Position numbers and translations under genes: made by a program. A stretch of 64,000 nucleotides of DNA, taken from Jaapia argillacea MUCL 33604 (Eukaryota > Basidiomycota > Agaricomycetes > Jaapiales > Jaapiaceae). The stretch is taken from the NCBI GenBank assembly GCA_000697665.1, contig KL197716.1:53682-117681 (forward strand). The letters run 5' to 3'. Positions 7,355 through 63,299 of this stretch are shown here, piece by piece. Each line of letters starts with the position of its first letter. Position 1 is the first letter of the stretch. The notes beneath the pieces are model-generated. The model was not told the origin of the DNA. It worked only from the letters and a program-made list of their open reading frames with translations, and did not search any database.

Positions 7355-7359
7355 TCGAC

Positions 7360-15426: not shown

Positions 15427-15788
15427 TTAGGCGGAGGCAGGATGAGATCAAAAACAGTTGAACTGCGAGGCCCGGGGTGACCCTTGAATGGAGTCGCCTT
15501 TCACAGACCTTTTCAATGAACGTCGAGGCTTGGCGCACCCTGTCGGACCCACTCTGGCCCGGCGTTTCATTGAATTCTCCCGCAGCGTCCTGTGCTGTAA
15601 GCGCTCAACACATCGATCTAACTTTCGCCCATCAGTTAACCTCACCTATTACTTCCGTTGTCAAAGCGGAACCCAACCTTATGCTGGGCCGAGGTATATG
15701 TGTCGCAGGCCTTAGCCAGAGAGTGCAAGTCATCTACTTGGCCTCCTCGTTCTAGCTGGTCCATTCCCCACCTTGGTATTTCTTCCAC

Positions 15789-17626: not shown

Positions 17627-17639
17627 TCCATCTACTTTG

Positions 17640-19600
17640 CACGCCCCGCAACGAGCTTGTACGATTTGGATGGATGGACTATTTCGTGCAGTTTGAATAT
17701 TATTCGAGGCTAATCTCTTGCCAACAGGCTCTACTCGATTTCACTTGACAGACTTCCGGTTTTTCACTGCCTGGGGGCCTAGGTGCCCCCGAAGTTCTAT
17801 TTCTGCTGAATTTTGAAAAGCTCAACCCGACAAATCCATTCGCTTCGACCAACCAGATGTCCTATCACCACATCGGCTTCTCGTCAATAGACTCTGCAGT
17901 TCAATCTCTTCTGGTTTCGTTGCACCTGTGGGACTGGATAAGATGCTGCGCTTCGGCCGGTTCACTGCTGTCCGCGAGACGGTTGGTTGGGGTGTTAAGT
18001 GGGATATTGAAATTAGGGAAAGATTTTGGAATGTCTAATCGAACTATTGAGGCTCCGTGTTATGCATGTTACGTTCCACACCCGTTCTTCGTTAGTTCCA
18101 CTGGTTTCAAAAGGCAACCCATGAGAGTCTCTGTAAGCCAACAAGCAACTCCCGCGTGCCTTTCGCTAACACCCAAGGCGAACATCACATCTTCCTTCCT
18201 CGTTAAACAGGAGAATCAGCTCACTGTTCGATAGTTCAAACGAGCGACGTATCTTGCTTCTCAGATCAGCCGCACTCTTAAAGCGGTAATAGGAACGACT
18301 CTATTCACGTATCCACCTGGACCTGTTGATGGCGAATATCTTCTCTAGCCACTCGACTCATCGGCGCTGATTAAGAGCCAGGACTTGGGTGACGAACGAG
18401 TGGTCGATGGAGAACGGTATAGGCGGAGGTCATGGGGTCGATCAATACAGAACACCAACCCCGGCGGAGAGCGGTCGATGGCTGGGGTGGTAAGAGAGGG
18501 TCGGTGAGAAGGGACAGAGGTTGGATTACGAGGAATTGGGTGAAGCAGTTTTGAGGGTCGACCCGTGGATGACAAAAACTCAGCGCTAACCAAATCATAT
18601 TTAGGGCCAGGGAATCAGGTTGAACGGTCGAATCAACGAGGTCTCACCTTCGACAAGAATCTATTTGATTGGGATACAAGGGTATCGTCGAGGGGATGAG
18701 ACAGAGAGATCGAGATGGCAAGGATAGTGAAAGTTGTCGTTGCAGGGTTCGGCATAGCCTCTGTCGAAGCAACTTGGCCTGGCATTGATTTGGCGCCGAA
18801 GACAAGCGCCCGTCAGAGATAGGCGACTCTCAGAGAAGAGTTGAAACGAATCTATTTCTGGGTCAGAAAATCTTGAAACTCCCAATTCCTTCACAGAATG
18901 TATCATATCATTCTCATCCCTGAACCCAACATCCCATTTACCTTCTATCGGCTCCTAGATTCGCTTGAAGATGGTTTAGCTAGGGAGGCTATTCGCTAGG
19001 CCGATGATACGGTATAACGAGCCAATAATCAGCACGTCCCGTAGTATCTCAGATCACACCAGTACCGAGCTGCCACCTGTCCTATTCGATAGAAGCAGAC
19101 GAGTGATAGACAAAAGCAGAGTAATACGAGTGTGTTGATAATAAAGACTGAGGAGTGAAGACTACTGTCTCTCGCAAAGTCCGTACGAAACCAAACAGCT
19201 ACAAACTAACGCCACAGCTTCGCTTTCCTTACATATTGTGACTGACCAGCAAACTATCAGTGACTTCCATAGCCGTTTGTTCCTATCATCCGGCAGGACG
19301 GCGGCTCGAGACATCCCCCAACTAGCGAAACTTCGTTCCGGGTCCTCCAATACATCGATGCATCACCCAAAAAACGCGAATAGCCTCAAGCGACGTGCCG
19401 ACGGCACGCGAGTCAAAAGCTTGTATCTCTCGTTCCCGACGCTAACCCCATTCCTTCGGCCTCGCTTATGGTCTCACCCGACTGTTTCCCCTTCCACTCC
19501 ACCCCTTCTTATCCAACAATTGAGGAGCCGCAGCGAACGGGTCCGACAAGAGGAGATGTGAAATGAACTATAGCATCGTACGATTGTCAATTGGGCGAAG
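17640..19600. other. No recognised gene; degenerate duplicated segments
   Basis: The first part is the conserved 3' flank of the DUF6533 unit. About 18180-18240 resembles sequence at 22070-22140. About 18549-18725 is homologous to 51651-51830, upstream of the NACHT gene. The rest, including several open frames shorter than 130 codons, shows no family I recognise. Confidence 0.4.
18549..18725. repeat. Dispersed duplicated segment, copy 1
   Basis: Shares an ordered run of words with 51651-51830, including CTCAGCGCTAA, CAGGGAATCAGGTTGAA, AAGGTCTCACCTTC-like and GAGATCGAGATGG-like. The two copies are about 33 kb apart in the same orientation. On the minus strand both can be read as HLDLSV-containing fragments, but no gene is evident. 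Confidence 0.6.
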
Positions 19601-19956
19601 ACAGGATGAGGTCAGAAAGAGTTGAATTGCGACGGGTGTCGAAACGGACCCGTCAAGGGAGTCTCCTTTCACGAACCTTTTCAATGAACGTCCAGGCTTG
19701 GTGCACCTTGTCGGATCCACTGGCCCGGTGTTCCATTGAATTCTCCCGCCATGTCCTGTGTTGTAAGCACCCGAAACATCGATGTGACTTTCGCCCATCA
19801 GTTAACCTCACCTATTACCGCCGTTGTCAAAGCGGTCGCAAACTCATGCTGGTGCTATTGTATATGTGTCGCAAGCTTGGCCACAGAGTCCAAGTCGACC
19901 ACTCAGTGGCCTCCTCGATCTGGCTGGTCCATTCCCCACCTTGATATTTCTCCCAT

Positions 19957-21749
19957 ATGCAAGACTTTGATCCAGTTGCCTTCGTTCAGAACTTGCAGTT
20001 CCTCCGCTTATTCCAACGTGAGTTCGGAACGGAAACTCTGGAAAGTCACAGAGGTGCCTCACGACTACTGCGCCAGTTTCAGGAACCGTTGTCACCATTT
20101 ACGATCACTGTGAGCGTTCACCACCCCCGTGGCTCTCCGAAAGACTGGAAGCCTAACATCTCCCGGCCAGCGATTCTCTTTGACCGAGAGGTTGGCAATG
20201 ACGTCTCCTTTCCTTTCAAGTTCAACTGAGAATTATTGATGTCTGACGCGTTAGGTCGAGCTTATCTGGGTACGTTATTGGTTTCCTTTGAGTTGTCGAC
20301 TGCTGAACAGGAACATTGGCAGGAGCGTCCGGGAATTATTGCGAAGATATTCTTTTTCCTGGTACAAGTGATTTCCTCCCCACCGTGAACCACCATTGAC
20401 TCTAGTGCAGATTCGATATTGCGGCGATTGTATCATCATGTAAGTCTCTCATCTGTGTCAGATGGTTGATATCATGCCGATGCCTCCCTCCTCCTCGCAG
20501 CACTATCTTGATCCGTATCCTTGTCTCCATATCCGTCTGGCCCACCCTATTGATTTTCAGCCGCCTAGCTTTCCTCACTGAGGTCACCTCAGATAGCGTG
20601 AGTTCCTCACCCTATCGGTCATTCATCTACTCATCTTCGGCGCTCTAACTGTTATCAGTCGTGAGTCAAGATTCATTTGTTTTACGCCAAGTCATCCCTT
20701 TACATATATTCCTCACGCAGATGTTGGTACGACGCCCTCGTCATTGACAAACCGCTAAACTCTCGTGTTTCAGGCCATAGCCGATTTCTGCTGCAAATAT
20801 GGGCTACCGTCATCCCTGTCTGGACTGTGCAAGGTATGCATGAAGTCGCCCGTCGAAGGCCGGCTATCCCCTCAGGCTGGGCCATGGTCATATCTCATCT
20901 CTGCATCCAAAGTTATCATGCAGTTCCGAGTCTACGCATTGTACAACCGCGCAAAATGGGTTCTAGCTCTCAACCTTGACGTGTTTCATAACCCAACTTG
21001 CGATGGTAATGGCTTTTCTTGCCTCGTATCGAGACATCCAACGTATGAGTTACCTCGCCCACCCCTTTTCATTGTGTTGATTTGCTTTCGTTAGTCATCA
21101 TCATCACACTCGATCCCTGGACAAGCTGTATAGTGACCCATATGCCACCTGATGCAGTCGGACCGTGGATCTCAGCTATGGCTTTTGAAGGGATCTTGTT
21201 TCTTCTCGTGCTCTACAAGACGGTGGTACATTTGTTACAGCTGAACTATCCTTTGACGAGGAATAGTGTCACCCAGGTTCTACTGAGAGATAACATTTTC
21301 TATTTCGTCGTGTTCGTCTCTCCCATTTCCTTTATCGTTGATCTCGCTCACCTTGCAGTTTTCAGCGTATTCTCAATTTATTGCTTGACGGTCCTCGCCT
21401 GGTACACTTTCCCCGTGCGTTCCCATCTACACCCCTTTTTCTTCACCCCTTTCGCATTCTCGGGCACTTAACCGTCTCTCTGCGTTACCAGATAATCTGG
21501 ATCGAGATATTCAGCAACTTGAATGTCGCAGTAACCTGCATACTTGGGTCTCGGCTCATACTTAATATCAGAAAAGCATCGTATCGATATGAGGAGTGTG
21601 TAAACACGCAGGAGATTGAATTCCAGTTGAGGGAGTTGGTGTATGGAGTTGAACGAGGGGCGTGGGTTTCGGGCGATGACAGCTTGGCTCGTGGTAGTCA
21701 CGACAATAATGGGACCGAGGGTGAGGGTGAATCTCGCCAGGTTGTATAG
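19957..21749 (+). pseudogene. DUF6533-domain gene, copy E (alpha subfamily), probably broken
   Basis: Fifth unit of the array, with the exon pattern of copies A and D: MQDFDPVAFVQNLQFLRLFQ, SGTVVTIYDH, VELIW at 20255-20269, IMQFRVYALYNRAKWVLAL, PPDAVGPWISAMAFEGILFL, LLRDNIFYF and GSRLILNIRKA, ending with the acidic tail. In the exon after the RVYALYNR hallmark it carries one extra base near 20971-20980 compared with all other copies. This throws the next membrane span (ITQLAMVMAFLASYRD in copy D) out of frame. No nearby GT/AG pair would remove it. Either the copy is a recent pseudogene or the base is a sequencing error. All other exons look conserved. Confidence 0.65.
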
Positions 21750-22339
21750 TTGATCTACCTTGCACACCGCGGAATGCGCTTGTACGACTTGGATGAACGG
21801 ACTATTTCGCCGAGTTTGAATGCGCTAACTCCCTTGCTGTCTGCTAGATTCCACTGGACCGACTTCCGGTTTTTCACTGCCTGGGGTTGGACTTGGGTGC
21901 CCACTGTTTGTCGAAGTTCTATCGCTGTTGAATTATGAAAGCTTTTGGGATGTCTACTCGGAGGCTTGGAGACCAGCTCATTGAAATTCGAGGTGCGCGA
22001 GACAATCCATGGCCCGGGAGAGTTTTTGAACGGGCAACTCCCATACGCCTCAGTTTCGCTGACATCCGAGGCAAATGTCACATTTTTTCCTCCTTCCAGC
22101 TTCTTCGTCAAACATGAGAATCAGCCCCCTGCTCGACATGTTCAAACCAGCGACACATCGTAGCGTCTTGCTCTCGTTCAATCGACTGTGGCGGATGTCG
22201 CGGAGTTCTAAAGGCAAATCACAGTTCGAACTTCGCACTGGCACCAACCACTTTGCCCGCTTGCACCTCAGGCCTCCGACGTTCTTATTCTGCCCGTCGC
22301 ACAACCCCAACCCACTCCCAACCTACTTCTGAGATTGGT

Positions 22340-26790: not shown

Positions 26791-27958
26791 AGGAGGGCTT
26801 GAGAAGAGCGGGAGAATGGGGTGTTGAGGATATTGAGAATTACGATGGAGGACTAGTATGTCGGAGGGAGGGGTGGGGTCAGAATGGCTTCGATAGCAGC
26901 AGAGCTAGTAAAGAACTTACCGAATTGACGCTGCTATTGATGTATCGGCGGTCTCCAACCCACACTTCACGCAAGATATAACCCGCAGGTAACCCAACGA
27001 CTATACCACTCGCCATCGCCCATCCACTTATCGGATGGCCGTCGGAAGGAGGAATTGAGGAGAAGAGGAGGTAGGGTTAGTTGCTTCGGTAATGGATTGA
27101 CCGGCGATGGGGTGGTGAGATTTCGAGGATGACGATGGAGGCCTCCTTTTCGAAGTGGTTAGACGGGGTGAGCATCGGTTTGGTAACAGGGGGTGTAATA
27201 CCAAACCTACCGTTCCGACAACTGTATCGGTGGTCTTCGACAACATGTCGTCCAAGACATAACGCAACATCTAACCCCGATCTTTGACTTTCCCAATGAC
27301 CATCCTTCAATTACACGTCAACTACTCATCGAACAGTCTTAAAGGGGAAGACGCGGTAGGACGATTACTTGGGCAAGGATTCGACACGAGGATGTCGAGA
27401 ATGGCGACACATGAATGGATGATGGGTCTATAGGTACTGCCGCCGAAAACGCGACGCAGTAATCCGGATCCCTCAATTCAGGCAGACGGTCCTCGAGTTC
27501 ATACCGAGCAGGAGGGATACGTATGTGGATGATACTTGGGATGGGTTTGCAAAGCGCACTAGAGGTGGTTAGGTGGAATGAGAATAGGTTCAATAACGAT
27601 AGAACTGGAATCCGACTTACCTGAACTCCGGGACCATCCTCCGAGTGTAAACATGTGAATCACCTCACCACTTCACATCCACTGAAAAGCTAGGACTAAG
27701 GATAGGGAATGCATGAGCTGGATCAAGGGCGGAGGAGGAACTGTCGGTATCGAGAGGAAAGGAAGCTAGAAGCCGTGGTGAGTCGGAGCTAGAGAGCAAA
27801 TCAAGTGCACGTGGAGTTAATTCGCCGAACCGTGGATTGCTCCAGGAGCAACGGCAGTAGATGGATGGATAAAATAAGCAAGTAGAGACGATTCGTCCTC
27901 TGACGTTGCAGCAACAGCAGAGCGGGCGAAGGAAGTCACGGAGTTTGAAGGCCAAATC
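26790..27958 (-). pseudogene. Decayed minus-strand gene copy (unit 4)
   Basis: The best preserved copy of the unidentified family. On the minus strand it reads ARYELEDRLPELRDPDYCVA near 27440-27510, then YVLDDMLSKTTDTVVGT near 27210-27260, then SGWAMASGIVVGLPAGYILR and EVWVGDRRYINSS near 26930-27040. A GT donor and an AG acceptor lead to SSIVILNILN near 26830-26860. Exon-like pieces are separated by short intron-like gaps but no single continuous model works. Function unknown. Confidence 0.42.
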
Positions 27959-28286
27959 TGTCGTGGCAAGGGAATAACCCGGGCACGTGACACTATCCAG
28001 AATAGGTAGTCTTCACACGAATGAAAGAACCGGTGTAAGCTCTCTCTGTTCACGGTAGACTAAGGAACTCGAGTGTACAACACAGTATGTACTTTATACA
28101 CATAGCATAGGGTTGTGGGCATAGATAAAGGAGCCCCGCATGGTCCGTAAGGCATAAGGAGCGACTGAATAGAGATATCGAGTAAAACGGCGTTTCAGCC
28201 ACTTGAGACGGATTAGGAAGGTGCAGAGTTGGTAAGGAATGTGGGGTCAGGACGGTTTCTGGTAGGGACCAGACACGTTCGCGACA
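27959..28286 (-). repeat. 3' LTR of the Ty3-type element
   Basis: 328 bp, starts TGTCG and ends CGACA. It pairs with 36715-37042 with about ten substitutions and no length change. A purine-rich tract (GGGAGGG on the minus strand, about 28290-28298) sits just inside it, where a polypurine tract is expected. The left flank ends with AAATC. Confidence 0.93.
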
Positions 28287-28446
28287 TACGCCCTCCCATG
28301 CATAATGAATGAGTGATGAGGAATGCATGGACCAAGTCGAATACGAGTGAAAAAATATTTTTGGATTTTTCGGAGTATGGGTATCGGATATGGGTATTGA
28401 GTATGGTCAGATGTGATGATGCACCGAAAATTAAGCGGGTGGGAGT

Positions 28447-29424
28447 TCAAACGGATGGAGGAGTGGATGATGATGATGATGATGCTTGGGTAGACGATCC
28501 CGAAGTGGAAGGGGGAGTGGTGGGAGGTCGTGCACCTGATTTTCCGGTTGCCCTCTTCGCCCTCTGTCTCTCCGCTCTCCTCTTCCTCTTGCATGCTATG
28601 GAGTCCTTGTCGATTAGGTTCTCCTGACTGTCCTCGTCGACCGAGATAGCATCACTTGCATCCGGATCGCCCATTTCTATGTCCTCCTTGTCCACTTCCT
28701 TCCCCTTTCCTTTTCTGGTAATCGTGTCATCACCAATTGAATTAACCTTCACCTTCTTATTCTTATTCTTCTTCTTTTTCCTTTTCTGTCCAACTTCCTG
28801 CACAGCCACCCCCACATCATCCTCCTCAACCTTCCTCTTCTTTGACAAGCCAGCCGCCTTCCTCTCCTCTTTCTCCTCCTGCCACTTCGCCTCTCTATCC
28901 TGCTTCTTGATAAAATGCTTCAATAACTGTCCTTTGTAATCCCTCAAGAGTGCCATCTTGGGTGAAACACATGGAGCTGGAGTAGTAGGAGTGGGTGTCA
29001 TAGTAGGAGGGGGTCAGCGATTGAGTGCAGGGACTCGAGAGACGTCGATGATGTCAGAGAGGATGGGGGCAGGGCCATGGATGTGTACTTTAGCAGTAGC
29101 CACATCGAGAGTAGAGAATTTGCTGGGGAAATCGAGTCGATTGTAAATTTCCGCCCAGTTCAGATAAGATGCCAGAAGGGCAAGACCATCTGAGGTGACT
29201 TTCCCTGATCTGAGCATGCCGTCAAACTTGACAAAGCCCTTGATCAATACGGGGTGGAAGATAATTGAGAAGTTGTCCCGAGCATGTACAGTGATGAACT
29301 GAGACCCGGAAACAAAGTACTCCTCCTTGGTAGGAGGGGCCATAATTAGCCAGAGAGCAAGGGTATCGGAATTAGGGAGGGGGAAACAATTATCCCCTTC
29401 CCCCGAACTTATTAACACCTCCAA
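28447..29424 (-). other. Extra 3' region of the LTR element
   Basis: Between the integrase part and the 3' LTR are two minus-strand open segments. One is about 136 codons with no recognised motif. The other is a 184-codon lysine- and glutamate-rich segment with basic runs (KKRKVEE, KRKKKKNKNKK) resembling nuclear-localisation signals and a serine-rich end. Ty3 elements often end after integrase, so this is additional material of unknown role. It is part of the fossil element. Confidence 0.55.
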
Positions 29425-29556
29425 ATTGATTTCAACCGACCCTAGAAATATCTGGGGGTTGTTGCTCGGGGGAGTACCCTTCCCAATGGGTAAATCCTGA
29501 ATTTTGTCGATCCCTAAGACCTCAAAATAAATGTCTAAGGCCTTCAGACTGTCGAC

Positions 29557-30982
29557 TCAGGAGTATGGCATCCAGGAGACATCCCCGGACTTCCATAGAA
29601 CCTCAAAAATAGCTTCAGACCTCGATCTGGAGTGTGATAGAATCTTATCAGCTGCCCATTCAATAGATTGAGCCTCAGGATTAATTATCTGAGCATCTAA
29701 TCGCCCAGGGAACAGTCGATCATCATTGGGATGAAAAAATTGGAGGAGGGACGCATGGAAAACGTTGTGAACTCCCTGTTGCTTCAGATCCGTGGACAAA
29801 TCGACCTTGTAGGAGTTATTACCAAAATCCCAGGTGATTCTGTAGGGACCAATCCACTTAGGTACTAATTTCCTAGCTAGCCCCTTCAGGTAGGAAATAT
29901 TCTTAGTGGATAAATAAACGAAGTCCTGCTCCTGGAATGGAGAGGGACGACATTTTCTATTAGCCCCCCAAGTCTGTTTGACCTGGGCAGAGATAATACT
30001 ATCATGGGCACTCATTATGGCCAGCTTCATTCGCTGGGCAAAGGTGCGGATACCGGGATATTCAGCAGGACTGGGATCTTGCCAGTCAATTGCCTGAGGC
30101 ATTCAACCCGTATTAAGAAAGAACGGGGCGAAGAAGATCAAGCCAAATTAATGGTGAACTTGATTGAGGGGAGCCAAGTGACCCAATCAGTCTACTTGGG
30201 ACCAATGATCTGCCGACACATCTGTCCCACGACCTTATTAGTTCGCTCGGTCGACCTATCCATCTCGGGGTGATGAGCACTGGACATCCTTAAATCGACA
30301 CCAGTTAATTGATTGAGTCTCTCCCAGAAAGTGCTAGTAAATAGCACATCTCTGTCGCTGATTATAGTGGTGGGGAGACCATGATGTCTGAATATTTCCA
30401 AGTAGAATAATTCTGCCACCTCCTGGGCCTTATAGTTATCACGGCTGGGAATAAGGTGCACCATTGCAGTGAATAAATCTATTACCACCGTGATTGTATC
30501 GAAAGTTCCATCCCTGTTAGAGGACTCAGGGAACAGTCCGATGAAATCTATTCCAATAACTTCCCAAGGTCTAGTAGGAACCTTGGGTGAGTTAAGCAGG
30601 CCATATGGCCGTTGATGGCTAGGCTTACTCATGGCACAAGTTGCGCACAAGTTGCGCACAAGTTGCAATAAGCCTTCACATAAGGGACCATTCCCTTCCA
30701 CCACACATGATCCCTTAAAAATTCTAGGGTCTTGATCACTCCCAAATGAGCTAACAAAGTATGGGCTTGTTGTACGACAATTTCCCTCGCCTTACACCCG
30801 TTTACCATAAGATCAGGAACACATAAAAGAGTCTGATCAGGTAACTGCATGTGTACTAGTCCTTCAGTCACACTGAAGTTCTTGTAATGGGAGGGATCCG
30901 CTAGTATAATCTTGAAGAATGGGTCCTTGCTGTAGCGGCCCTTTATCTCAGAGATTAGATCAATGCCAGTGATTGACGTCAC
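29557..30982 (-). other. Integrase and chromodomain-like part of the LTR element
   Basis: Recognised by the HHCC-like region and CATCAMSKPSH, the integrase core (VIGIDFIGLFPES, IISDRD, SSAHHPEMD), the GPYRITWDFGNNSYKVDLS segment typical of Ty3 integrase C-termini, and a final stretch (EAIFEVLWKSGDVSWMPYS) that resembles a chromodomain. This places the element among chromovirus-like Ty3 elements. Fossil, broken. Confidence 0.8.
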
Positions 30983-31098
30983 TGGACTAACAAGTCCCGA
31001 GTCTGCATCGGATATCTTATCAGCCTTTGGCGCGGCTTCTAAATTCCTGCGATTTCATTTTGGACTTTGGTGATATGATCGGCTAATTGATCTGCATC

Positions 31099-31839
31099 TC
31101 ACGTGTCTTTAACCTTCATCGGCTTTGACTTCGCAGCTTCAGACTTTGTGCTTTTGGGTTGTACCCTCGCGCCCTCCTGTGCATCCTTTGGGGTAACCCG
31201 CAGATGCACACGCTTTATACGCTTGGCAAACTCCTTGGCAGTCTCCAGGCAACCTGATTCAGGGGGCAATACTGGTGCAACCGCCATAGCCTCCACCCCT
31301 ACCACGAGAGGGATCGAAATCCTCACGCCCTCCAGACCTGAGTTAAGGTCCTCATCATGGTAAGTATATTCACTCCTTGACCTAATGGTGCCTGGGGCAT
31401 CGTTTGTATAGATCCTCGACAGAGCGTCCGCCAGGACATTCTCGGTCCCAGGGACATACTCCACGGTAAGATCGAACTCAGTGATCTTCTCAAGCCAATG
31501 AACCTGCCGTCCTGAGAGCTTCGGCTGGGTCATCAGGTGAGTAAGCCCCTTGTGATCTGTCAACCAGGTGAATGATGCTCCCTGGAGTATGTCACGATGC
31601 CACAGCATCGCTTCCACTCCAGCGAGCATTTCAATCTCATGTACTGGATAATTAAACTGAGTGGTATTCAGTTTAGCAGAGTAAAAAGCCGCCACCCAAG
31701 CGGTTTTAAAATCATTCCCCTGGCTCACCACCCTGGACAACCCCCCATGCGACCTGTCAGTGATGAGCCAAATAGGATTGGCCTCAGGTGAGTAATCCAA
31801 GGGTTTCCAGCAGTGTTCCTGATGTGCATGGACTAACAA
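31099..31839 (-). other. RNase H part of the LTR element
   Basis: Shows ITDRSHGGLSRVVSQG, FYSAKLNTTQFNYPVHEIEM and TWLTDHKGLTHL followed by EYVPGTENVLADALSRIY, the usual Ty3 RNase H run. A basic linker follows. Fossil. Confidence 0.85.
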
Positions 31840-32070
31840 TTTAACTTCCTCGAAAGCCCTCTGCTCAGTAGGTCCCCATCAGAACAACGAAGCATCCCCC
31901 ATTAGAGCCGACAGGGTACCCATAGGAATCTGCACGGAAGGTAAGTCCTCCGCCAAATACCCTACCGATCCAAGGAAACCTTGCAAGAGGTCCCGGTTCG
32001 TCGGGGTTTTCCATGCTAACACATTGTCGACCTTATTAGGGTCCATACGGATCCCCTCATCGTCAACAAT

Positions 32071-33861
32071 TCAGCCCAAGATTTTTAGTTCCTTGCAGAG
32101 GAAGTGGATCTTCGAGGAACTGAGGTATAGCTTCTCTTTCTTAAGTATGTCTATAATAATATGTATTGCCCAGACATGCTCCTTGAGAGTGTCTGTGTAG
32201 ACAATAATATCATCTAAATAAACATCCATAAATACAGCCAGATGGGGTGCAAATATATGGTTCATTAAGGATTGGAAGGTAGCAGGGGCATTGCAATCCC
32301 CTTGCTGCACAACCAAGGAAACCATATTTCCATCTGGTGTTGTCATAGCCGTCCGATCAACGTGTTCGGGGACAATACGAACCTGCTCGTAAGTGTCTTT
32401 TTGATCGAGGATTGATCGGTACTTCTTCTGCGCGATGCGCCAAAGTATACCTTCTATATCGGGAAGCGGGGTAGTGAGCTTCTCGGTATTGGCATTCCTC
32501 TCCCTCAAATCGACTGCTATACATAGCTGGGGTGGTACACCCTTCACTCCAGTCCCTGGCTTCATTAATAGAAGCATAGGACTTGCATTCCGGGCATTTG
32601 ACACCTCCCATCGACCACTACAAAGGTAAGAGTCCTGCTTCTGAATCCAATTAGCCCTATGGGCATCCAGACATTTGGCAGGTCTCCAATAGTAAGTAGC
32701 GTTCTCATTTTTCAACGGAATCTCATGGTTAATATCCCTGAATGGTGGGAGGGGGGCCTCCTTACCATCCAGACACACCGGAAGAGCATACTGCATCAAG
32801 TCCTTACAGACCTGATCCAGTGATTCATGGTAAATATCCACTGCTCTCAATTCCAGGATCCTGATGGACGTCCCCTTCAGAGGTAAAGGTGAGTTACTAC
32901 CCACTATCACACTTGGGGGATTTAATCCTATCAAGACTTTAAACTGAAACAGGAATGGTGTCCCCAGAATTAAATCATAATTCTGGATGTTCACCACATC
33001 GAAGTATCGTTCACAGTTAATTCCCTGATAGCTGAAATTGGCTGTAGCACCCCAGTTGACTTTCGTCCTGGAGCCTTGAACGGCCAATTGAACAGGTAAG
33101 GGTTTCTCCAACTCATTTTTGCGAATCTTTAACTGATCCACTAAATGGATAGCCATAAAATCCGTCAGCGATCCCAAATCCAGCAAGGCACATGCTGGGG
33201 ACCCCTCAATCCACACTACGATGATGAGGGGACTCAGAATCGCCCTACGAAAATCCTGAGTCGATGAGGAGTTTCGTTCCAGAGCTTTGTAGGAGGTAGG
33301 TTCGATATTAACCGAATTTAACTTGACTACTGACTCAACTGGTCGATTCCCTCGAATGTTAGGTCTCTTCCGCTTTCTGGAGGGGCGAGTGGATTCCTCA
33401 ACCAGAGGTAAATCCTCCTTGGGGTAGAATAGTGCATCAATATGCATAGGACCTTCCCAATTTGCAGGAAGTCTCTGGGTTTCTGAATAGTAAGTGTTTA
33501 ACCACCCTACTATGTCATATTTCAGGCAACGGGTTATTTCCAGGGGAAGGGGAATAACCCCATCCCGGAATCTGTCCTGTATCACAAACTGACCATTTTC
33601 TATATGGCAGCGAAACCGATCGTACTCCTGGTGACCCCACCAAGAGTATGGATCCCCGACATAAGGTGCATGCTTTTGTAGCAGCATCTCCACCTGGTCT
33701 TGGGCAGGGGTCCCCATAATGCTGTCCCTAGGGAAGCGATTATTGGAGGGACCAATCCATCTACCTGTCCTCCTGTACTCCCCTGTCCTACGCTCCCCAT
33801 ACCAGGTAGCGAGGGGGAAGTTTGGATTAAGTAGTAAATCTTCCTTAATTATTGTATCCAT
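32071..33861 (-). other. Protease and reverse-transcriptase part of the LTR element
   Basis: The protease-like region has ALLDLGSLTDFMA followed by YDLILGTPFLFQ. The reverse transcriptase part has CIAVDLRERNANTEK, LPDIEGILWRIAQKK, QQGDCNAPATFQSLMNHIF and VYLDDIIVYT. Order and motifs are Ty3-type. Fossil. Confidence 0.88.
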
Positions 33862-33921
33862 ATGGTTGGTAGTATCAATAATGCAGAAAGCGTCCCCTGG
33901 AAAGACCCTATAGACTAAGAA

Positions 33922-36609
33922 TCAATCTGGGGACTCCATTTCACCAGGAAACCTAACCCCATTCCCCTCATCTCCTGGGTAGGGAGATTCGCGAGAGAGA
34001 ATATGGGCAGCTCTGACAGCTAATGGTTCGCCTATGGGCACCGGAGTCGATTTCCGATCCTTCCAAGACTCTCTAGGTGCCAAATGCGAGTAGGCATATC
34101 TAGAATTCCTAACCCATTCGTCCTCGAGGACATGTACAGCATTTAATTCAACCTCGTTGATAGTTGCAGTAGAATCTGCAAGAACCTGAAGGTCCTCCAC
34201 AATTTCCACATTGTAGCTGGACAGCCCAGGAGGCTTATTAGGCCTGTCAGACTTCACATAATTATCTTGAGTATAGTTGCGAGCCAAATGGCCCTCGCAT
34301 CTGCACTTGAAGCATTTCCTGGAGGCCATTAATTCCTTCTTCTCTTTGTCCAAGAGCGAAGGTTTACTAGCTGACGCACGAGAACCAGATTGATGGAATG
34401 AATTGCCTCCGTTAGCAGTCCTGTTACCGCTCCCCTGGTTCTGATGATGCACATTACTGGAATTGGCAGAATAGTTGCCTTTTCTGGAATGCTCATTACT
34501 GGGCTTTGGTCTGAATGAACTCTGCCCATTTCTGCTCCCCCCTGGCCCTCTATGCTTGGGGTTCGATGGCCCAATATTATTGTTATGACTTCTTCTGCCG
34601 TGCTCAATGGATTCGGCCTTTTCAATAATTTCAGCTACCTCAACTACCTTTTCCCAAGACGCCGTTTCAGGATTGAGGTAGGCTTTCCATAATTGAGACT
34701 GGATATCACAACGCAAGCCATTCCACAATTTGTCGACTTGCTCACTTTTTCCAATTGTACCAATTATTTTGAAGTAGACTAGTAGTTTGTGAGCGTATTC
34801 ATGGACCAACGAAGATCCTTGAGTACACCTCCTCAACTCAGTCCTTTGCATCTGCCTAAAATTCTTAGGGAAGCAATAATCGAATAATCCCTTGAAAAAC
34901 TTTGAGAGGGACCATTCACTGCTCGATCTCAACACCACAACAGTGTAATATTTGAGCGCAGTGCCAGACAGGAAGTGAGATACATATCTCACTTGCTTAG
35001 ATTTCTCAATTTCCCCATCCGAGCAGTAGTCCCAGGAGTTGTGAACGAATTTCACATAGATCGTAGCATCGGCCACACTGTTATAGACCGTGGGCTCACA
35101 AGGCTTAATCTGACTATGGGTCTTTTTCTTAGATTTGCACTTTTTACTGCACTTCCGGGGTTTAGGATCTGAATAATCAGATCCATTGCTTGAATCACTG
35201 GAGTCCGACCCCAAAACCAACGGATTGGTGGAGGAGGAGGAGTCCGAAGGCAAATTGCCCCGGTTTCGAGGGAATAACGATCTCAATACAGATCATTTGT
35301 GAGGAGGTTCTGGATTCTTACTTCCGGAAGGTCGCCCTCTGCTTGCTTTCCCCGAACGCTCCTTCCACTTCTTAGGGTGGATAGGTTCACTCTCAGATTG
35401 ATTAATAAAATTATCCTCCTCCTCACTATTGCTAGGAGGGGGGACGGATTTAGCTGGAGCTCGAGGACGCTTGGATTTTGGCTTCGAATGCTGAGGAACC
35501 GACGCAACAGATACAGCAACTGCGTAATCGGCAGATGAGTTACCATTTATGGAAGGTTTCTTATCAAAGTCAGATTTCCCGCCTGATGCATGATGGTTCC
35601 TCAGTAATTGGGCCAATCTAGCACTACAAGTGTTTGCCTCGTCCAGTTCTTTCTGGAGTTCAATAGATACTGGGTCAAACCAAAATCCCTGAGTGTTTCG
35701 TTGCACGGAAGACGAGCGATCTGCAGCAGATCCTCGCTCTGGTTCGTCCTCCGAAGTAAATTCAAATTTCCGATTAGCCTCTCCTCTGAGAGACTTAATC
35801 AGTTTCCAATTGGCCATGGCAACTTTCTGCGCCTCGATGTCCAAATCGCTTTCACTGAGATCGGCATTTCCCCAGTTACGGGGGTCTGGACCTTTATTCT
35901 TTCCAGAAGGTCCTTCTCCTCTAGAGGAGGCTGTCTCAGCCCCATTATCAGGCAATTGTATTTTCTGGGCCTTACACCGTTTCATGTGACTCAATTCCTC
36001 CTTGCTCAAACGAGTGTTAGCTTCAGCCATCGCTTGTTTTTGGTAATTGATGGGAGGAGCGGGAGGCTTCTCGACCTTTTTCCCTTTTTGGGTAAGGTCA
36101 TTATTCATTTCATTTCCCGAGGAAGACTTCCTGGCTCTCATCAAAGAGTTGAGTGATTTGGCCTTCTGGGCCTTTCGTTTGATGGGTGTCCATCCATGAT
36201 CGTCATCACAGGCCCTCTCAAAATCACTTATGGGCTTGGTGCCCATTGATCCCTCAGCAATAATAGATAAATCATTATTTTTATTATTACTATTGAGAAT
36301 TACAATAGCGCTATCATCCCGAGTAGGGACGACAGTGGCTACTCTATCCAACCCGCGGGAAGCAGGAGGATTCACGCCCTCCGTTACTACCTCAGCAAAT
36401 GAACGCCGAGGGCTCACGGTAGGCTCAGAGCGTAAGCTCTCGTGGTCGGAATGACCACCTTCAGGGGTAGGTGCCTGGACACCGTGCGTATCTACAGCGG
36501 AAGTGAGGGACTTACTTCTGACCCATGTTACACAGGAACGTGTATTGAGTGCGACGGGGGCAGTAGTACGAGCAGTGGTGCGAGCTGGGGGGCGGTTGCT
36601 CTTAGACAT
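33922..36609 (-). other. Gag-like region of the LTR element
   Basis: Two consecutive minus-strand parts. The 5' one is about 440 codons, hydrophilic and serine/lysine rich. The second has a Ty3 gag-like core (FLSGTALKYYTVV, FPKNFRQMQRTELRRCTQGS) and a CFKCRCEGHLARNY zinc knuckle near its end. Fossil; counted within the breaks of the whole element. Confidence 0.8.
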
Positions 36610-36714
36610 CGCAGTTGCTGAGGTTAATCAGACCGAAGACAATTCCAGAGATGTGTGAGAGCGAATAAGCAGAGATTAAATCAAAAGCAGAGAATTCAGA
36701 TAGGGTTCAAAATA

Positions 36715-37042
36715 TGTCGTGGCAAGGGAATAACCCGGGCACGCGACACTAGCCAGAATAGGTAGTCTTCACATGAATGAAAGAACCAGTGTAAGCTCTC
36801 TCTGTTCACGGTAGACTAAGGAACTCGAGTGTACAACACAGTATGTACTTTATACACATAGCATAGGGCTGTGGGCATAGATAAAGGAGCCCCGCATGGT
36901 CCGTAAGGCATAAGGAGCCACTGAATAGAGATATCGAGTAAAACGGCGTTTCAGCCACTTGAGACGGATTAGGAAGGTGCAGAGTCGGTAAGGAATGTGG
37001 GGTCGGGACGGTTTCTGGTGGGGACCGGACACGTTCGCGACA
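36715..37042 (-). repeat. 5' LTR of the Ty3-type element
   Basis: 328 bp, same ends as the other LTR. The right flank begins with the target duplication AAATC. The bases just inside it do not show an obvious TGG-starting tRNA primer site. Confidence 0.93.
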
Positions 37043-38632: not shown

Positions 38633-39733
38633 TCACGCTTCACCGATAGAAAGAACTTCAAAGATTTCGGACATCTTGATCCGCATGGAAGGCTCTCGTA
38701 TAAAGCAACGCATCACTAAGGCCCATAGTCGGTCATCTAGGCCAGCTCGCACCACAGCCGGCGAACTAGGGCGGTGAGGCAGTTCACCGGCTGCAACTGC
38801 GTAGAGAACTTGAATATCCATTTCCAGATGATCATATGGTAGATGACCGGTGAAAATCTTGATAGTAAACTCATCAGTGCTAACAAAGTCGAGTAGTATA
38901 TTTTGGACGGACCTGAATCACCAAGCAACCGAAAGCAAAGACGTCACTATGGGTTGTTGGTCGGCCACTGGTGAAAAGCTCGGGTGCGGAAAAGCGAATG
39001 TGACCGAGGGTTGAGAGTCCGGAGGGCGTCGCAGTCATGGAAGCCACCTTCTCGACATGCCTGGTAAGCCCAAAATCGCACAATAGCGCATTTCCTTCAT
39101 CAGAGATGAGGACGTTGTCCTTCGTATGGTAAGACAGTGCAGATCCGTTTGGCTAGGAAGTGGTGTCGCTTACCCCTTTGAGATCGCCGTGAACGTAGGA
39201 AGTGCCCGATCCACCTGAATGAAGGTAATTCAACGCATCGGCGATTTGAGAGGTCTGACACACATGTGGTTCAGCGCGATTACCACCTTATACATTGGGG
39301 TTTGACAAACCAGTCTTGTGCGGTCGTGCTCCGGATTTTCCTCCAGGTATTGCATGGCATTTCCTTTGCCGACCCAAGGAGATATCAAGAAAAACCGGTT
39401 GCCATCGAGCATAGCGAAGCCAAGGAATTCTAAGATGAATCGGTGCTTGAACCGGGACCAGATCTGCGCTTCTCTCCGAAACAACTGAGATTGGTCAATT
39501 TTAGCCCCCGATGATAGAAGATGACCACACAGACATTCTTCCCTTTGTTTCGATGCGAATCTGACATATTCATGAACATTCTCAACTGCTTCATCGCAAC
39601 CTGTTCTGTGCGCGATTCGGAACGTAACACACCCATGTAGAGCTCGCAGGTCGCACCCCCCGCGGAGTGGCCCTCTCGTGATAGACACGGAGGTACTTAG
39701 GTCAATAGGCGCCATTCGGCTTCTGTGTTCCAT
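38633..39733 (-). CDS. Tyrosine-kinase-like protein kinase, possibly frameshifted
   Basis: Compact kinase domain in about six exons, of the agaricomycete tyrosine-kinase-like type. Seen in order: glycine-rich loop GGATCELYMG with VAMK for the ATP lysine, LFRREAQIWSRFKH (helix C region), FFLISPWVGKGNAMQYLEEN, the catalytic loop HGDLKG, LLCDFGL, the activation segment ending FSAPELF, then DVFAFGCLVIQ and a C-lobe with DRLWALVMRCFIREPSMRIKM. The three catalytic signatures (K, HGD, DFG) are present, so the domain would be active. Oddity: the reading frame from the first ATG (MEHRSRMAP) meets the glycine-loop frame only if a run of six C (39656-39661, + strand) had five. This is a break or a homopolymer sequencing error. 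No N- or C-terminal extra domain is seen. Confidence 0.72.
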
Positions 39734-39820
39734 CTTCTGCTCTCCCAGAGTGTGAACATTGTTGGTCTCACTGATGGCAGTATCGGTATTGAAATCTAAA
39801 GAAGGAATGTGGCGCTGGCA

Positions 39821-41923
39821 TTAGAAATCTTCCCCGGGCCCAGGAAAAGATGGCGACCACGAAGACGTACCATCACCATTAGTCGGATTATTACCGGCCG
39901 GCCCTGAAGTCCACGTATCAATATTGGTGCAAGGAATGAAGAGCCGCTCCATTGAAATTGCTCCAGGGGCGGAAACCTCCTTCACATCCTTCAATAATAC
40001 GCCATCGGTATCCCCCTCTCCAGTTGTCGAAGCAACGGTACCTTCGTAATGTTGTCCAGTCTTGGTCAAAAGGGTTACTGTGGTCCCCTGTGTGTCAAGA
40101 ATCCAAGGAACTCAACAAATGCGGTCAAGATTTGAGGAAATAAAGACGCACAGAAAGGCCAGACAAGTCTTGCAAAACTCGATTATAAAGTTCAGGGTCA
40201 GGCGCCGAATTTCCATTCGCTTGAGTGAAGGTGTCCGAAGGAGGATTCTTCGCTTTGAAGGGGTGAATGGCTTGTAGAAACGTGGATATGTGGGCCGGAG
40301 GAGCAACAGGAGCGGAGAGCTCTGTACCGGTGAGGATCGTCACATTTGAAGCGACTAGAATTGAACGAGCGTCAGTGGAAGCAGCGTCCTGTTCCGATTT
40401 CTTGAGGATTTGTTTCTGCTTCTCTTCATCTTTGGCCAAGATAGGAATTAAGTCTTCGGGAATAGGTTTGTTGAGCTAACATCGGGCAGTGTTCGTCAGA
40501 GCCGATAATGATGTTATTGTGACGATCCACCTTGAAAGTCTGACTAAACTTGAGTAGATCTACCATTCTCTTGTCCATCTCCCTCTTGACAAGCGCAGCC
40601 CGTGTTTGCACCACCCTCGGTCTCTCGTTGAGAACAAAGTCCCGGAGACGAGGAAGAGGGTTATCAAGAGTCCGCTGCAACGTCTCAGATTCACCATCGG
40701 GATGCGTCGGGACAAGGGCTGGGTGCTGTGTGGCCCGCGCCTCGTTAACCGGCGCTACGGTATTATTCACAGCAGTCGAGACGGCTGTGGCTGTGGCAGG
40801 AGGTGTTTCCGGCTTCGAAGCGAAAGGTGGAGTAGCTGAAGAAGAAATGCAGTACCAGCATCAAAATTGTTTCATTATGAGATGAAGACACCGAGGGCGT
40901 ACATTCAGCAATAATTGTTTTGTTATCCGCCGAATCTGAAGTCCACGTATCGATATCGGTGCGCGCGATGAAGAGTACCTCCTGTGCGGTTGCCCCGGGA
41001 GTCGACACGTCCTTCACGTTCAGCAATAATACGCCCGGAGTAGTATCATGCCATGGGTATACTATACTAACAGTACCTTCGTAGCACTGTCCAGTCTTGG
41101 TCCTCAGAGTAACTGTGAATCTCTGCACCAAGGCGTCGGGGAGTTCAACGACTTTGGTTAAGATCTGAACACATAAACACGCACAATAAGTCTAGACAGG
41201 GCGTCCAGAACTCGGTCGTGGGAGTCGAGTGGATAAGGAGGCCATAGAGGTCGGCTGTGGCATTAACCTCAATAAACAAAAGGATTGAACTAGTGAGAAG
41301 TGATGGACAGACCTTCGAACTGCCGGAGCTTCGCCCTGATTGGCATTGGACGTACCATCAACAATAATGGTTTTGGTATCCGCCGGTTTAGGAGTCAACG
41401 TGTCGATACTGTCGTACGGCATGAAGACCGGAGACTGAAGCACCTGTAATCCATAAAAAGTGGACACCACCGTCACGTCGTTCAATATTACGCCCGTCGT
41501 ACCCCACATTCCGGATGTCGAACCAACAGTACCTTCGTACCACTCTCCAATCTGGGTCTGTATAGTAACTATCAGTCCCTGAACCAAGGCGTCGGGGAGT
41601 TCAACGACTTCGGTTAAAATCTGAACACATAAACACACACAGTAAGGCCAGACAGGGCTTGCAGAACTCGGTCGTGGGCGTCAGGTGTACGAGTTCCTTG
41701 GATTTGACCCACAGAGACAAAAGATAATAGATCGGTATTGGAAGCGGGGGAAAAACTGTTGTTGAGCCTTTCGAGCATAAGACTTGTACCAACTCCCCAT
41801 GCAGGTGGCCTGTGGCAATAACCTCGGTAAACAAAAGGATTAAACTAGTGAGAAGTGATGGACAGACCTTGGAACTGCCGAAGCTTCGCCCTTTTTTGTC
41901 GGCTCTCCTCTGGGCTCCGCCAT
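39821..41923 (-). CDS. Ataxin-2/Pbp1-related protein with three SM-ATX modules
   Basis: Eight exons on the minus strand: 41923-41868, 41809-41641, 41578-41313, 41254-41185, 41122-40903, 40835-40531, 40475-40152, 40087-39821. All introns are GT...AG, 54-67 nt, and the frame is open throughout (558 residues). Ataxin-2/Pbp1 proteins bind RNA and poly(A)-binding protein and act in stress granules. Three related SM-ATX-like modules are visible: about residues 62-150 (YEGTVGSTSG...YDSIDTLTP), 173-258 (YEGTVSIVYP...RTDIDTWTS) and 455-545 (YEGTVASTTGEGDT...TNIDTWTSGPA). Each has an intron at the same place and phase. Between modules two and three lies a Pbp1-like stretch, LLKFSQTFK then LNKPIPEDLIPILAKDEEKQ. 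I see no complete LsmAD domain. Module three is closest to the family consensus. The modular order is unlike normal Pbp1, so it is probably a rearranged paralogue. Confidence 0.75.
41185..41868. repeat. Internal tandem duplication in the ataxin-2-like gene
   Basis: A block containing the end of exon 1, intron 1 and the start of exon 2 (41860-41640) recurs 555 bp downstream around 41313-41185. Shared features include a nearly identical intron beginning GTCTGTCCATCACTTCTCAC and the coding words HDRVL and LSGL/LSRL. This is direct evidence that modules one and two arose by tandem duplication. Confidence 0.75.
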
Positions 41924-42221
41924 GTAGAAAACGCGGCTGCAGAGATTCAAATGAAAATCAAGGGGTCCGGGGAGGCAAAAACAACGAAAGCAAGGGAGAG
42001 CGCGAAGTCAGAGAGATGACTTGAACCGAAAGTAGCGTCGGAATGACAAGTTGATGACATTCGATTGGCGACTGTCGTGACGAGCGCAACGGGGGAAAGC
42101 AAGCTGCGTTTAAGCGCCCTGCAGGACGCAGGTGCTAGTGGTTTGTGTGCAGTCGATATTGCTGCCGTGGGTTAATCTTATCTGATCCTTCTGGCCTGTT
42201 CGGTTGTGTCCAATCAATAGT

Positions 42222-42616
42222 CACTGCAGACCGAGGAACATAGAGCCCTCATGCATAGTCGTCGCCAAGGCTTTGGTGTGTGAATACAATCGGCGTAGCT
42301 ATGTACCTTACACTTATCCTTTGAGATTGTTAAAATAGATTAATGGACATGCACCTTTGGCATAATCCAATGACTTAGTTAATATATGTGGCGGAGCATA
42401 TGTGCCAAAACTACTATATTAGGCAGTTCTCAAGCCTATTTCGCTCCGCCATATTTTAACTCGGCCTAATAAGTTAATGAGAGAGGCAAATGCAATGATA
42501 TATTTTAAAAATCTCAAAGGATAAGTTCAAGGTACATAACTACGCCGATTGTATTCACACGCCAAAGCCTTGGCAACGAATATGCCAGAGGGCTTTATTC
42601 TCCTCGGTCTGCAGTG
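42222..42616. mobile_element. Palindromic MITE with CACTG ends
   Basis: 395-bp non-coding element that is almost entirely two inverted arms. The outer ~110 bp of the left arm (CACTGCAGACCGAGGA...) matches the reverse complement of the right end at roughly 85-90%. Inner parts also pair (GTGGCGGAGC with GCTCCGCCAT), leaving a loop of only a few dozen bases. The element is flanked by AGT on both sides. CACTG termini with a 3-bp duplication are the signature of CACTA (EnSpm) DNA transposons, so this is probably a non-autonomous foldback derivative. No coding capacity. Confidence 0.8.
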
Positions 42617-42619
42617 AGT

Positions 42620-59910: not shown

Positions 59911-60131
59911 ATTGTGTAGGCGAAAATCTTTTGTATGCACAAGCAAATCAACTCTACATATACTCTACGATCCAATCAGCTTCTGCGGGAGCGTGTTTGG
60001 GAGCAGAAACTTTATTGACAGCCCGAGAGGTCAAGAGACTGAAGCGGCGGCACTGATGCGCGGGGTGTCCGAACAAAAGATCAAGAATGGTCAGCGATTG
60101 GATGTTCAAAGATGACTCCAGCGGGGCCAAA
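59911..60131 (+). repeat. Gap-flanking direct repeat, left copy
   Basis: 221 bp, identical to 60417-60636 except for one base (GTCCGAAC against GTCCAAC). It ends exactly where the run of N begins. Confidence 0.95.
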
Positions 60132-60416
60132 NNNNNNNNNNNNNNNNNNNNNNNNNNNNNNNNNNNNNNNNNNNNNNNNNNNNNNNNNNNNNNNNNNNNN
60201 NNNNNNNNNNNNNNNNNNNNNNNNNNNNNNNNNNNNNNNNNNNNNNNNNNNNNNNNNNNNNNNNNNNNNNNNNNNNNNNNNNNNNNNNNNNNNNNNNNNN
60301 NNNNNNNNNNNNNNNNNNNNNNNNNNNNNNNNNNNNNNNNNNNNNNNNNNNNNNNNNNNNNNNNNNNNNNNNNNNNNNNNNNNNNNNNNNNNNNNNNNNN
60401 NNNNNNNNNNNNNNNN
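60132..60416. other. Assembly gap (285 N)
   Basis: Run of N. Any open frame drawn through it is an artefact. Confidence 0.99.
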
Positions 60417-60636
60417 ATTGTGTAGGCGAAAATCTTTTGTATGCACAAGCAAATCAACTCTACATATACTCTACGATCCAATCAGCTTCTGCGGGAGCGT
60501 GTTTGGGAGCAGAAACTTTATTGACAGCCCGAGAGGTCAAGAGACTGAAGCGGCGGCACTGATGCGCGGGGTGTCCAACAAAAGATCAAGAATGGTCAGC
60601 GATTGGATGTTCAAAGATGACTCCAGCGGGGCCAAA
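60417..60636 (+). repeat. Gap-flanking direct repeat, right copy
   Basis: 220 bp starting exactly after the run of N, the same sequence as the left copy. Either a real tandem repeat or a false duplication from two overlapping contigs that were not merged. Confidence 0.95.
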
Positions 60637-61582: not shown

Positions 61583-63250
61583 TCACTGCAAAGAACCTTT
61601 CCTTCCTCTTCCAGAAACTCGCTCACTTCCAACACCACTGCTCTCGATCCCGTTCTGTTCCTCGTCTGCCACTGCCGTCTCCTCCTCCTCCTCCTCCTCC
61701 TCCTCCTCCTCCTGCCTCTGCCTCCTCTGGCTTTCCTCATCCCCCATGTCCTCCTCCTCTTCCCTCTGCTCTCCTTGCATCTTCTGCTCCAGATCCCTCT
61801 GCACCTCTGCAAGCTTTGTCCCCTCCCTGGGTATGAATTCCCTGAGCCACCGCACATTGAATTCCCCATTAAGTGGAACTCCTTCGAGAGTCTCAAGTTG
61901 ATACGAATTTGTTAGTCGCTCCATGACCCTTCTCGGCACGGACCACTTCGGGAGGAGTTTGTGCTCAGTCTTGAAGGTGTAATCCAGATTGCTACAGTAG
62001 ACTTGAACTAGCTGGCCTTTGGTGAAGATGACTTCCCCTTTGCTCGAATTTAGTACCTTCCTATCGAACCTCGCTTTGCGTTTGACAGCATGTATGACAG
62101 CAGCCTCATACCTGTCAAGCCTTTGTTGAGCCACATACGCCATCTGCATGCTGACATCAGCTGGCTTCAGGACCGAAGTACTATCCTCGATGGGAGTTGG
62201 TGGCGTGTTGATTACTAGACCCAGTAGCAGCTCCTTTGGTGAGAACTTTAGTGCTGGAAGTATGCGAGAGTTAAGGATGCAGACTGCATCGTCCAGATGA
62301 TCAGGCCAGTTCTTTGGGAGACTCTGCCAACCTTGTTCGGTGTCCAAGTCTTCACCGATGTCTGGTGCGCAAAGTCGTTTCAGGACATGCAACAAAAGTT
62401 TGTTAGTGCCTTTGCAGAGACCATTGATCCACGGTGAATAGGCTGCAATGACGTGGTGTGTTGTGTTCCACTGCTTACAGAAAGCACGAACTTCCTCATT
62501 ATTGAAATGCTTGCCACCATCTGTCATAAAGGTTTCTGAGGCGATGAATGGGTGGAATATCTGAGAGAGACCGTTGATTGTTGTCTTGCCACTTCCTGCG
62601 GTCTTGTATTTGAAGGCCCATACATTTTGGGAGTAACAGTCAAGGTAGACACCAAGCGTATGGTACCCTCCCTTGCCAACCAGGAGCGAGAGGTAATCAC
62701 CAACAAGCAGCTCAAATGTGTAGCGCCGTGTGATTGGGTTAAGCAATGCATGGAGGTGAGTTCCACCGAAGCTCTTACATTTTGGACAGTCTTTGATACC
62801 CACTATGATCAATTCATCAAGACGGGGGCTGTGAATCCTATCGATGAGCACCATTTTGATTGTGTCCCGGTGCCAGTGCCCTCCCTCCAAGTGCTGCTTC
62901 CTCACCAGTTCTACCGCCTCTGCCTTTGTAATGCACTCTGTCCGCGAGCGTGCTCTTGTACCTGTACCCCCGTTCACCCTCCATAACCTTCCTTCCTCGA
63001 TCATATACTGGGAGGCCCTGTGTCGTGCACAACGTCGCTCTCGTGCATCCTTCCCTTGGTCAAGTTGCGCCAATGCCTTAATGACCTCAACAAAAAGTGG
63101 CTCCTTCTCAAACCTCACCTGTAGTGCACTCACCTCTGATGATGCATCAATGGAAAATACATCATGCACCAGTCCGGACTCTGCCTCCCAGTCTTCACAA
63201 ATGTCCCACTTGCTACCATCACCTGTGATCCTTGGTATCCCCTCCCACAT
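61583..63250 (-). mobile_element. Ty3-type integrase region of a fossil LTR element
   Basis: A 555-codon minus-strand frame. It starts with a linker, then has an HHCC-type zinc-binding segment (ELVRKQHLEGGHWHRDTIK ... DCPKCK), an integrase core (VGDYLSLLVGKGGYHTLGVY, FMTDGGKHFNNEEVRAFC, HHVIAAYSPWINGLCKGTNK) and a GPYRV-like C-terminal segment (LLPKWSVPRRVMERLTNSYQ), ending in an acidic run. This is the integrase of a Ty3-type element common in Agaricomycetes and differs from the one at 28-37 kb. No reverse transcriptase or LTRs are found nearby, so only part of the element remains. Treated as broken. Confidence 0.8.
61679..61713. repeat. CTC/GAG trinucleotide microsatellite
   Basis: About eleven CTC units, encoding a glutamate run on the minus strand near the end of the integrase frame. 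Confidence 0.9.
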
Positions 63251-63299
63251 TCGACTATCAACAGCTCAAATGATGTCACATAGAGGTCCTTCTATTTTG

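Follow-up and report, generated by a model that had tools for sequence, protein, structure and literature searches.

Three SM-ATX-like modules ahead of a TKL-like kinase in a candidate chimeric gene of the fungus Jaapia argillacea

The sequence described here lies on the minus strand of a 64,000-nucleotide stretch of Jaapia argillacea DNA (contig KL197716.1), which we call the window. Our best explanation, held with about even confidence, is that it is one chimeric gene in which a Pbp1/Ataxin-2-like sequence, partly duplicated in tandem and without LsmAD, has been joined ahead of a TKL-like protein kinase. The predicted order of parts is SM-ATX1, SM-ATX2, a Pbp1-like linker, SM-ATX3 and the kinase. 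A typical Ataxin-2 protein has one SM-ATX domain, one LsmAD domain and one PAM2 motif.

All-frame translation and intron threading of the minus strand from 41923 to 39821 join eight exons into 558 codons and a stop. The initial annotation of this DNA had claimed eight exons and an open frame of 558 residues; both totals were reproduced, and the exon borders given below are new, the annotation having listed none. Introns 1 to 7 are all of the GT-AG type, measure 55-67 nt and have consistent phases. The exons, and the two introns that are needed for the argument below, are as follows.

41868-41923, minus strand: exon 1, with the start codon at 41923; its 3' end is repeated at the end of exon 3
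41810-41867, minus strand: intron 1 (58 nt), of which intron 3 (41312-41255) is a duplicate with 93.1% identity
41641-41809, minus strand: exon 2, a proline-rich start and then helix 1 of SM-ATX module 1
41579-41640, minus strand: intron 2 (62 nt), with 93.5% identity to intron 4 (41184-41123)
41313-41578, minus strand: exon 3, the core of SM-ATX module 1 (Sm-like in its predicted model), whose last part repeats the end of exon 1
41185-41254, minus strand: exon 4, helix 1 of SM-ATX module 2, from splice threading and Pfam
40903-41122, minus strand: exon 5, the core of SM-ATX module 2, from splice threading and Pfam
40531-40835, minus strand: exon 6, part one of the putative Pbp1-like linker, ending FSQTFK
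40152-40475, minus strand: exon 7, part two of the linker (LNKPIPEDL...) and then helix 1 of SM-ATX module 3
39871-40087, minus strand: exon 8, the core of SM-ATX module 3 (predicted Sm fold); 40087-39821 belongs to the 558-residue frame

The openness of the 558-residue frame is more than chance. As a control, the stretch and its dinucleotide shuffles were threaded end to end with at most seven GT-AG introns of 48-80 nt. Such threading succeeds over the whole of the actual stretch, whose best path of 1764 nt starts at an early ATG. With an ATG start, a path of at least 1674 nt was found in 0 of 1000 shuffles, and the end was reached at all in 1 of 1000; with any start allowed, none of 1000 gave a path of that length. 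A separate shuffle run on a nearly identical stretch reached the end in 1 of 40 cases, at 1614 nt. Of 120 actual stretches of 2.1 kb drawn from both strands of the window (any start, overlap allowed and the locus itself perhaps included), 14 gave such a path.

Three segments of the spliced protein resemble the SM-ATX domain, as the initial annotation had noticed, and Pfam bears them out jointly: the whole N-terminal protein matches SM-ATX with an E value of 1.1e-10 (41.9 bits, cut-off 29.8), with three stretches at E up to 1. Taken singly, each module falls under the cut-off of 29.8 bits, module 1 at 23.1 bits (E 8.9e-5) and modules 2 and 3, both weak matches, at 15.9 bits (E 0.015) and 14.7 bits (E 0.036). 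A phase-0 intron stands at the equivalent site in each module of the spliced model, after ...QALSGLT, ...DALSRLI and ...QDLSGLS in modules 1, 2 and 3, and the common intron position and phase remarked on earlier thus holds for all three. Structure prediction, suggested in the same annotation, was carried out for the core exons of modules 3 and 1, and both are predicted to take the five-stranded Sm barrel fold (five strands in each model; mean pLDDT of 79.0 and 78.9, respectively); the input to both was an alignment of the three modules only, so the two models are not independent. Foldseek comparison with the PDB gave a best E value of 5.6e-4 for module 3, with two matches below 0.001 among the best 50 of 747, and of 6.3e-3 for module 1, with none below 0.001 among the best 50 of 723 (E up to 10 in both searches); judged by entry title, the best 50 matches of each model are Sm/LSm proteins or complexes containing them. 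A sequence search of the PDB with module 3 returned nothing credible, the best E value being 0.23.

Between modules 2 and 3, at residues 357-371, lies the stretch FSQTFK/LNKPIPEDL, which we take to be a Pbp1-type linker; used as a query, it had no match in Pfam and none in the PDB. The initial annotation had placed this stretch ahead of the third module, which is confirmed, and had explained its place by displacement in a rearrangement resembling circular permutation, which is not needed because the place of the linker, behind module 2, is that expected of a tandem copy minus LsmAD. SM-ATX and then the linker is the ordinary order in a Pbp1-like protein, where the conserved linker presumably stands after LsmAD. 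Circular permutation was accordingly rejected, the order being that of one Pbp1-like copy without LsmAD and then a second, partial copy, module 3. The profile search proposed earlier for SM-ATX and LsmAD succeeded for the first, at the whole-protein score given above, and did not find the second, LsmAD being absent from the Pfam matches of the spliced protein up to an E value of 1. PAM2 was sought with a single PAM2-like pattern, which degenerate forms could escape, and the protein had no match to it. The text of one survey counts 12 of 216 Ataxin-2 orthologues without a PAM2 logo (PMC4105795).

The stop codon that closes the 558-residue frame probably lies inside a further intron, with the gene running on toward a protein kinase. 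The features in question are listed here.

39796-39870, minus strand: candidate intron 8 (75 nt; GTACGT ... CTAATG ... CTTTAG), containing the stop at 39821
39655-39795, minus strand: first part of exon 9, from DFNTDTAIS... to RGPLRGG, in frame with module 3
39656-39661, minus strand: six consecutive Gs in the part coding for the kinase glycine loop, the site of the frame change
38633-39654, minus strand: TKL-like protein kinase in five pieces, 39654-39535, 39484-39311, 39254-39174, 39119-38913 and 38857-38633 (stop included)

Splicing of intron 8, entry into the kinase frame, the making of a product and its mode of action are all inferred. Past the spliced intron 8, the frame reads NGD-DFNTDTAISETNN...IDLSTSVSITRGPLRGG, and its DFNTDTAIS stretch resembles the Pbp1 stretch that follows SM-ATX. 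The kinase pieces are all in phase 0, are separated by GT-AG introns and end in the stop at 38633. The 268-residue kinase piece matches the Pfam profile PK_Tyr_Ser-Thr (PF07714) with an E value of 8.4e-35 and 120.8 bits. Among the best 60 of 2093 solved sequences, its closest match is TNNI3K, followed by BAK1 and IRAK4, with CTR1, StkP, PDK1 and CSK ranking lower; this top set presumably points to the TKL group, and we call the kinase TKL-like on the strength of these best solved matches rather than of a tree. Its motifs include VAMK and HGDLK (Gly where Arg is usual), which would supply the lysine and the catalytic aspartate, as well as DFG and APE.

A stand-alone protein of 558 residues with three SM-ATX modules, ending in what we call intron 8 and adjoined by a separate kinase gene, would fit an open frame that finishes in a stop. 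We think it unlikely, in view of the strong signals of intron 8 and of the recurrence of GTACG: in the module alignment, this sequence stands at the equivalent position after modules 1 and 2 as well, and after module 2 it is the donor of intron 5 in our model, whereas the intron after module 1 uses a donor farther downstream. The stop codon (39823-39821) sits 25 nt ahead of exon 9 and therefore leaves little room for a gene boundary. The kinase's own frame is open from 39696 onward and reaches the glycine loop without an ATG, the first Met being that in ELYMGV, so a separate kinase gene is disfavored.

The chimeric reading has one conspicuous difficulty. Between RGPLRGG and ATCELYMG the reading frame shifts, and the shift falls within the run of six Gs. 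The cause may be a misreading of the G run or a real break in the gene; alternatively, splicing bypasses the run. Because of this change of frame, an in-frame fusion of modules and kinase requires an alternative splice or a misread run. Seven joins reach the kinase frame without a stop and with no base altered; the most credible are a single intron, 39870-39696, and an extra intron, 39771-39696, while one other would require an intron of 22 nt. The product with the extra intron scores 122.4 bits against the kinase profile, compared with 120.8 for the kinase piece alone, figures that do not separate the splice alternatives.

The frame change at the glycine loop speaks for the main rival of the chimeric-kinase reading, in which a rearrangement driven by repeats fused parts of a Pbp1 copy with a kinase copy, giving a chimera that is now functionless and decaying. 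This is a possibility that we take seriously, though short of favoring it. The same reading draws on the LsmAD and PAM2 that were not found in the spliced protein, and on the retroelement open reading frames and palindromic repeat near the locus. Set against it are the long open exon chain, matched in 0 of 1000 shuffles, and the state of the kinase piece, which is otherwise open, with GT-AG introns and catalytic motifs.

The history of the modules bears on this choice as well. Introns 1 and 3 are 93.1% identical and introns 2 and 4 are 93.5% identical (8 differences in 120 nt together), and for this reason modules 1 and 2 look like recent copies. The introns of module 3 have 64.5 and 66.1% identity to their counterparts; by this measure, module 3 is older than the duplication that gave modules 1 and 2. 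The 3' end of exon 1 recurs at the end of exon 3 with 90% identity over 96 nt. Module 2 apparently arose as a copy of the segment that runs from the end of exon 1 through intron 1, exon 2 and intron 2 and includes the core exon. The tandem duplication of SM-ATX modules within one frame, proposed in the initial annotation, is thus backed by shared intron sites, Pfam and intron identity. Exon 4, the equivalent of exon 2 in module 2, is the shorter of the two by 99 nt, which counts on the side of decay.

The core exons of the modules differ from each other by 30-35%, so they are unlikely to be collapsed assembly copies. More generally, the assembly might have falsely joined a kinase to copies of an ordinary Pbp1 gene, and we regard this as very improbable. 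It is true that the draft window holds an N gap between near-identical 221-nt copies and that the junction of module 3 with the kinase, unlike the other two junctions, does not keep the frame. However, the window's sole run of Ns, at 60132-60416, is far from the locus, and the module 1/2 and linker/module 3 junctions fall inside exons 3 and 7 with the frame kept.

Between modules 1 and 2, amino-acid changes are in excess. Over 84 codons, dN is 0.48 and dS is 0.29; the comparisons of modules 2 and 3 and of modules 1 and 3 give dN/dS of 0.52 and 0.60, so that over longer spans amino-acid change has been restrained. In codons 1-36, a span picked after the alignment had been seen, differences fall on 24.8 of 79.8 nonsynonymous sites and on 3.2 of 28.2 synonymous ones; the Fisher p value is 5e-6 when introns and synonymous sites together are the reference and 0.025 when synonymous sites alone are. 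For codons 1-31 the corresponding p values are 0.0011 and 0.095, and for codons 1-12 they are 0.11 and 0.24. Three estimators applied to the first 35 codons gave dN and dS of 0.38 and 0.12 (NG86), 0.35 and 0.22 (LWL85) and 0.43 and 0.05 (maximum likelihood). Beyond column 36, dS is 0.45 against a dN of 0.54, and the two halves tell different stories. These figures are suggestive of diversifying selection, in a span chosen after looking, and gene conversion could mimic part of the excess. The earlier proposal that the gene may be under selection gains some support from modules 1 and 2, while over the whole module of 84 codons the contrast of nonsynonymous with synonymous change has a p value of 0.058. 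The amino-acid changes do exceed the neutral yardstick, which decay alone would not yield.

If the gene is a chimeric kinase with an SM-ATX array, its history would have begun with a tandem pair of Pbp1-like copies, the first of which lost LsmAD, a kinase then joining behind the SM-ATX of the second. Most likely the array would bind RNA, an RNP partner or itself and, once bound, would gather and position the kinase domain at its target, much as oligomerizing partners do in kinase fusions; by analogy with published cases, the kinase would be clustered or recruited to RNA granules. The multivalent RNA-binding or condensate-forming protein proposed in the initial annotation would be a candidate role. 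The changes in modules 1 and 2 would then alter what the array recognizes. Such bare SM-ATX modules may bind poorly, since LsmAD and PAM2 were not found and LSmAD is reported to assist LSm; under its section heading, the paper concerned has LSmAD assisting both the folding and the RNA binding of LSm (PMC11898529). The same text describes Atx2 LSm without LsmAD as binding U-rich RNA, which LsmAD alone does not.

Integrated decoys occur in plant immune receptors, and on this model the gene could encode a fungal recognition kinase in which the Pbp1-like SM-ATX triplicate serves as bait, diversifying as a virus or rival strain targets Pbp1, and in which disturbance of the array would activate the kinase. 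We think this a long shot. The text of a review of fungal immunity, in which the word decoy is absent, names kinases as one kind of enzymatic domain predicted at the N-terminus of fungal NLRs (PMC10197012).

A Pbp1-like SM-ATX module tripled on a kinase, with the remainder of the Ataxin-2 protein dropped, would, if real, show that the module can serve as a portable targeting unit, and the gene would link the biology of RNA granules with the kinase expansions of mushroom-type fungi, which are poorly understood. Diversifying selection on an Sm fold would be unusual, and the amino-acid excess, if real, would be such a case.

With Ataxin-2/Pbp1 proteins (SM-ATX, PF14438; LsmAD, PF06741; PAM2), the gene has in common its SM-ATX modules and a linker that would resemble that of Pbp1; it differs in having three modules instead of one, in that LsmAD and PAM2 were not found, and probably in a C-terminal kinase. 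Fungi yielded a single Ataxin-2 gene in the survey text, and the fungal orthologues carry LsmAD (PMC4105795). Yeast Pbp1 is described as binding the kinase Psk1, being phosphorylated by it and being able to hold TORC1 in stress granules (PMC5485521).

Kinases of the TKL group are numerous in Laccaria bicolor according to the text of PMC2838846, and the FslK kinase lineage is expanded in Agaricomycetes according to that of PMC3937382. The Laccaria kinases and the present one share a TKL-like catalytic domain, as judged here by best solved matches; the N-terminal SM-ATX array sets ours apart, and the word ataxin is absent from the text of PMC2838846.

Joins of Ataxin-2-like proteins with kinases have been described. 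An ATXN2L-JAK2 fusion was found in one human lymphoma, in a report whose text also names oligomerization in ETV6-JAK2 (PMC5732765). Both this fusion and the gene considered here place an Ataxin-2-like protein ahead of a kinase catalytic domain; unlike our gene, ATXN2L-JAK2 is somatic, retains all ATXN2L domains including LsmAD and involves an animal tyrosine kinase. A further paper, in its text sections, finds Ataxin-2 chimeras in about 5% of lower species, among them fish chimeras with RIO2 and MAPKAPK5 domains, an Aspergillus felis chimera with an SCYL1-like region (a catalytically inactive kinase) and fusions with LRR in Rhizoctonia solani and Ceratobasidium, and it warns that some of those listed may be artefacts (PMC12898128). 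What these share with the present gene is Ataxin-2 joined to other domains, some of them kinase derived; the text sections include no chimera with several SM-ATX copies or a TKL kinase. Neither three SM-ATX modules nor a TKL fusion is described in the text of PMC4105795 or PMC12898128. The combination reported here may be a variant of the known Ataxin-2 chimeras, whether functional or decaying. In the open-access literature, we found no paper that pairs SM-ATX with Pkinase, nor SM-ATX with tandem and fungi. Among viral contigs and prokaryote genomes, no relatives were confirmed, a result that has no bearing on fungi.

The surroundings of the gene contain several repeats and mobile elements. 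About 300 bp upstream of the start codon is the palindromic repeat already mentioned, possibly a small transposon.

42221-42617, no strand assigned: palindromic repeat with 132-nt arms, 86% complementary

Searches of the window by tblastn revealed no convincing further copies of the kinase or of SM-ATX, the remaining matches having E values of at least 0.044 and most being short, and tRNA and Rfam scans of the whole window gave no matches. Downstream of the kinase is a probable retroelement (27954-37042), inferred to be of the Ty3 type and flanked by 333-nt repeats that are 96.7% identical (27954-28286 and 36710-37042); one of its open reading frames, 32074-33921, encodes a reverse transcriptase and an aspartyl protease, and another, 33925-35292, is weakly gag-like. 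Five gene-sized copies of about 2 kb occur at 729-2825, 5485-7480, 10008-12056, 15413-17776 and 19577-21886, with 76-85% identity over the ten pairs; an open reading frame from one of them (16665-17342) had no Pfam match at E up to 0.01. On the other side of the gene, the open reading frame 49288-50148 matches NPHP3_N with an E value of 3.2e-14, and we take it to be a NACHT-like NTPase region such as occurs in fungal NLR receptors. The N gap falls within 59911-60636, where the flanking 221-nt copies are 99.5% identical, and is likely a scaffolding artefact. The open reading frame 61586-63265 encodes an integrase core (rve) and marks another mobile element.
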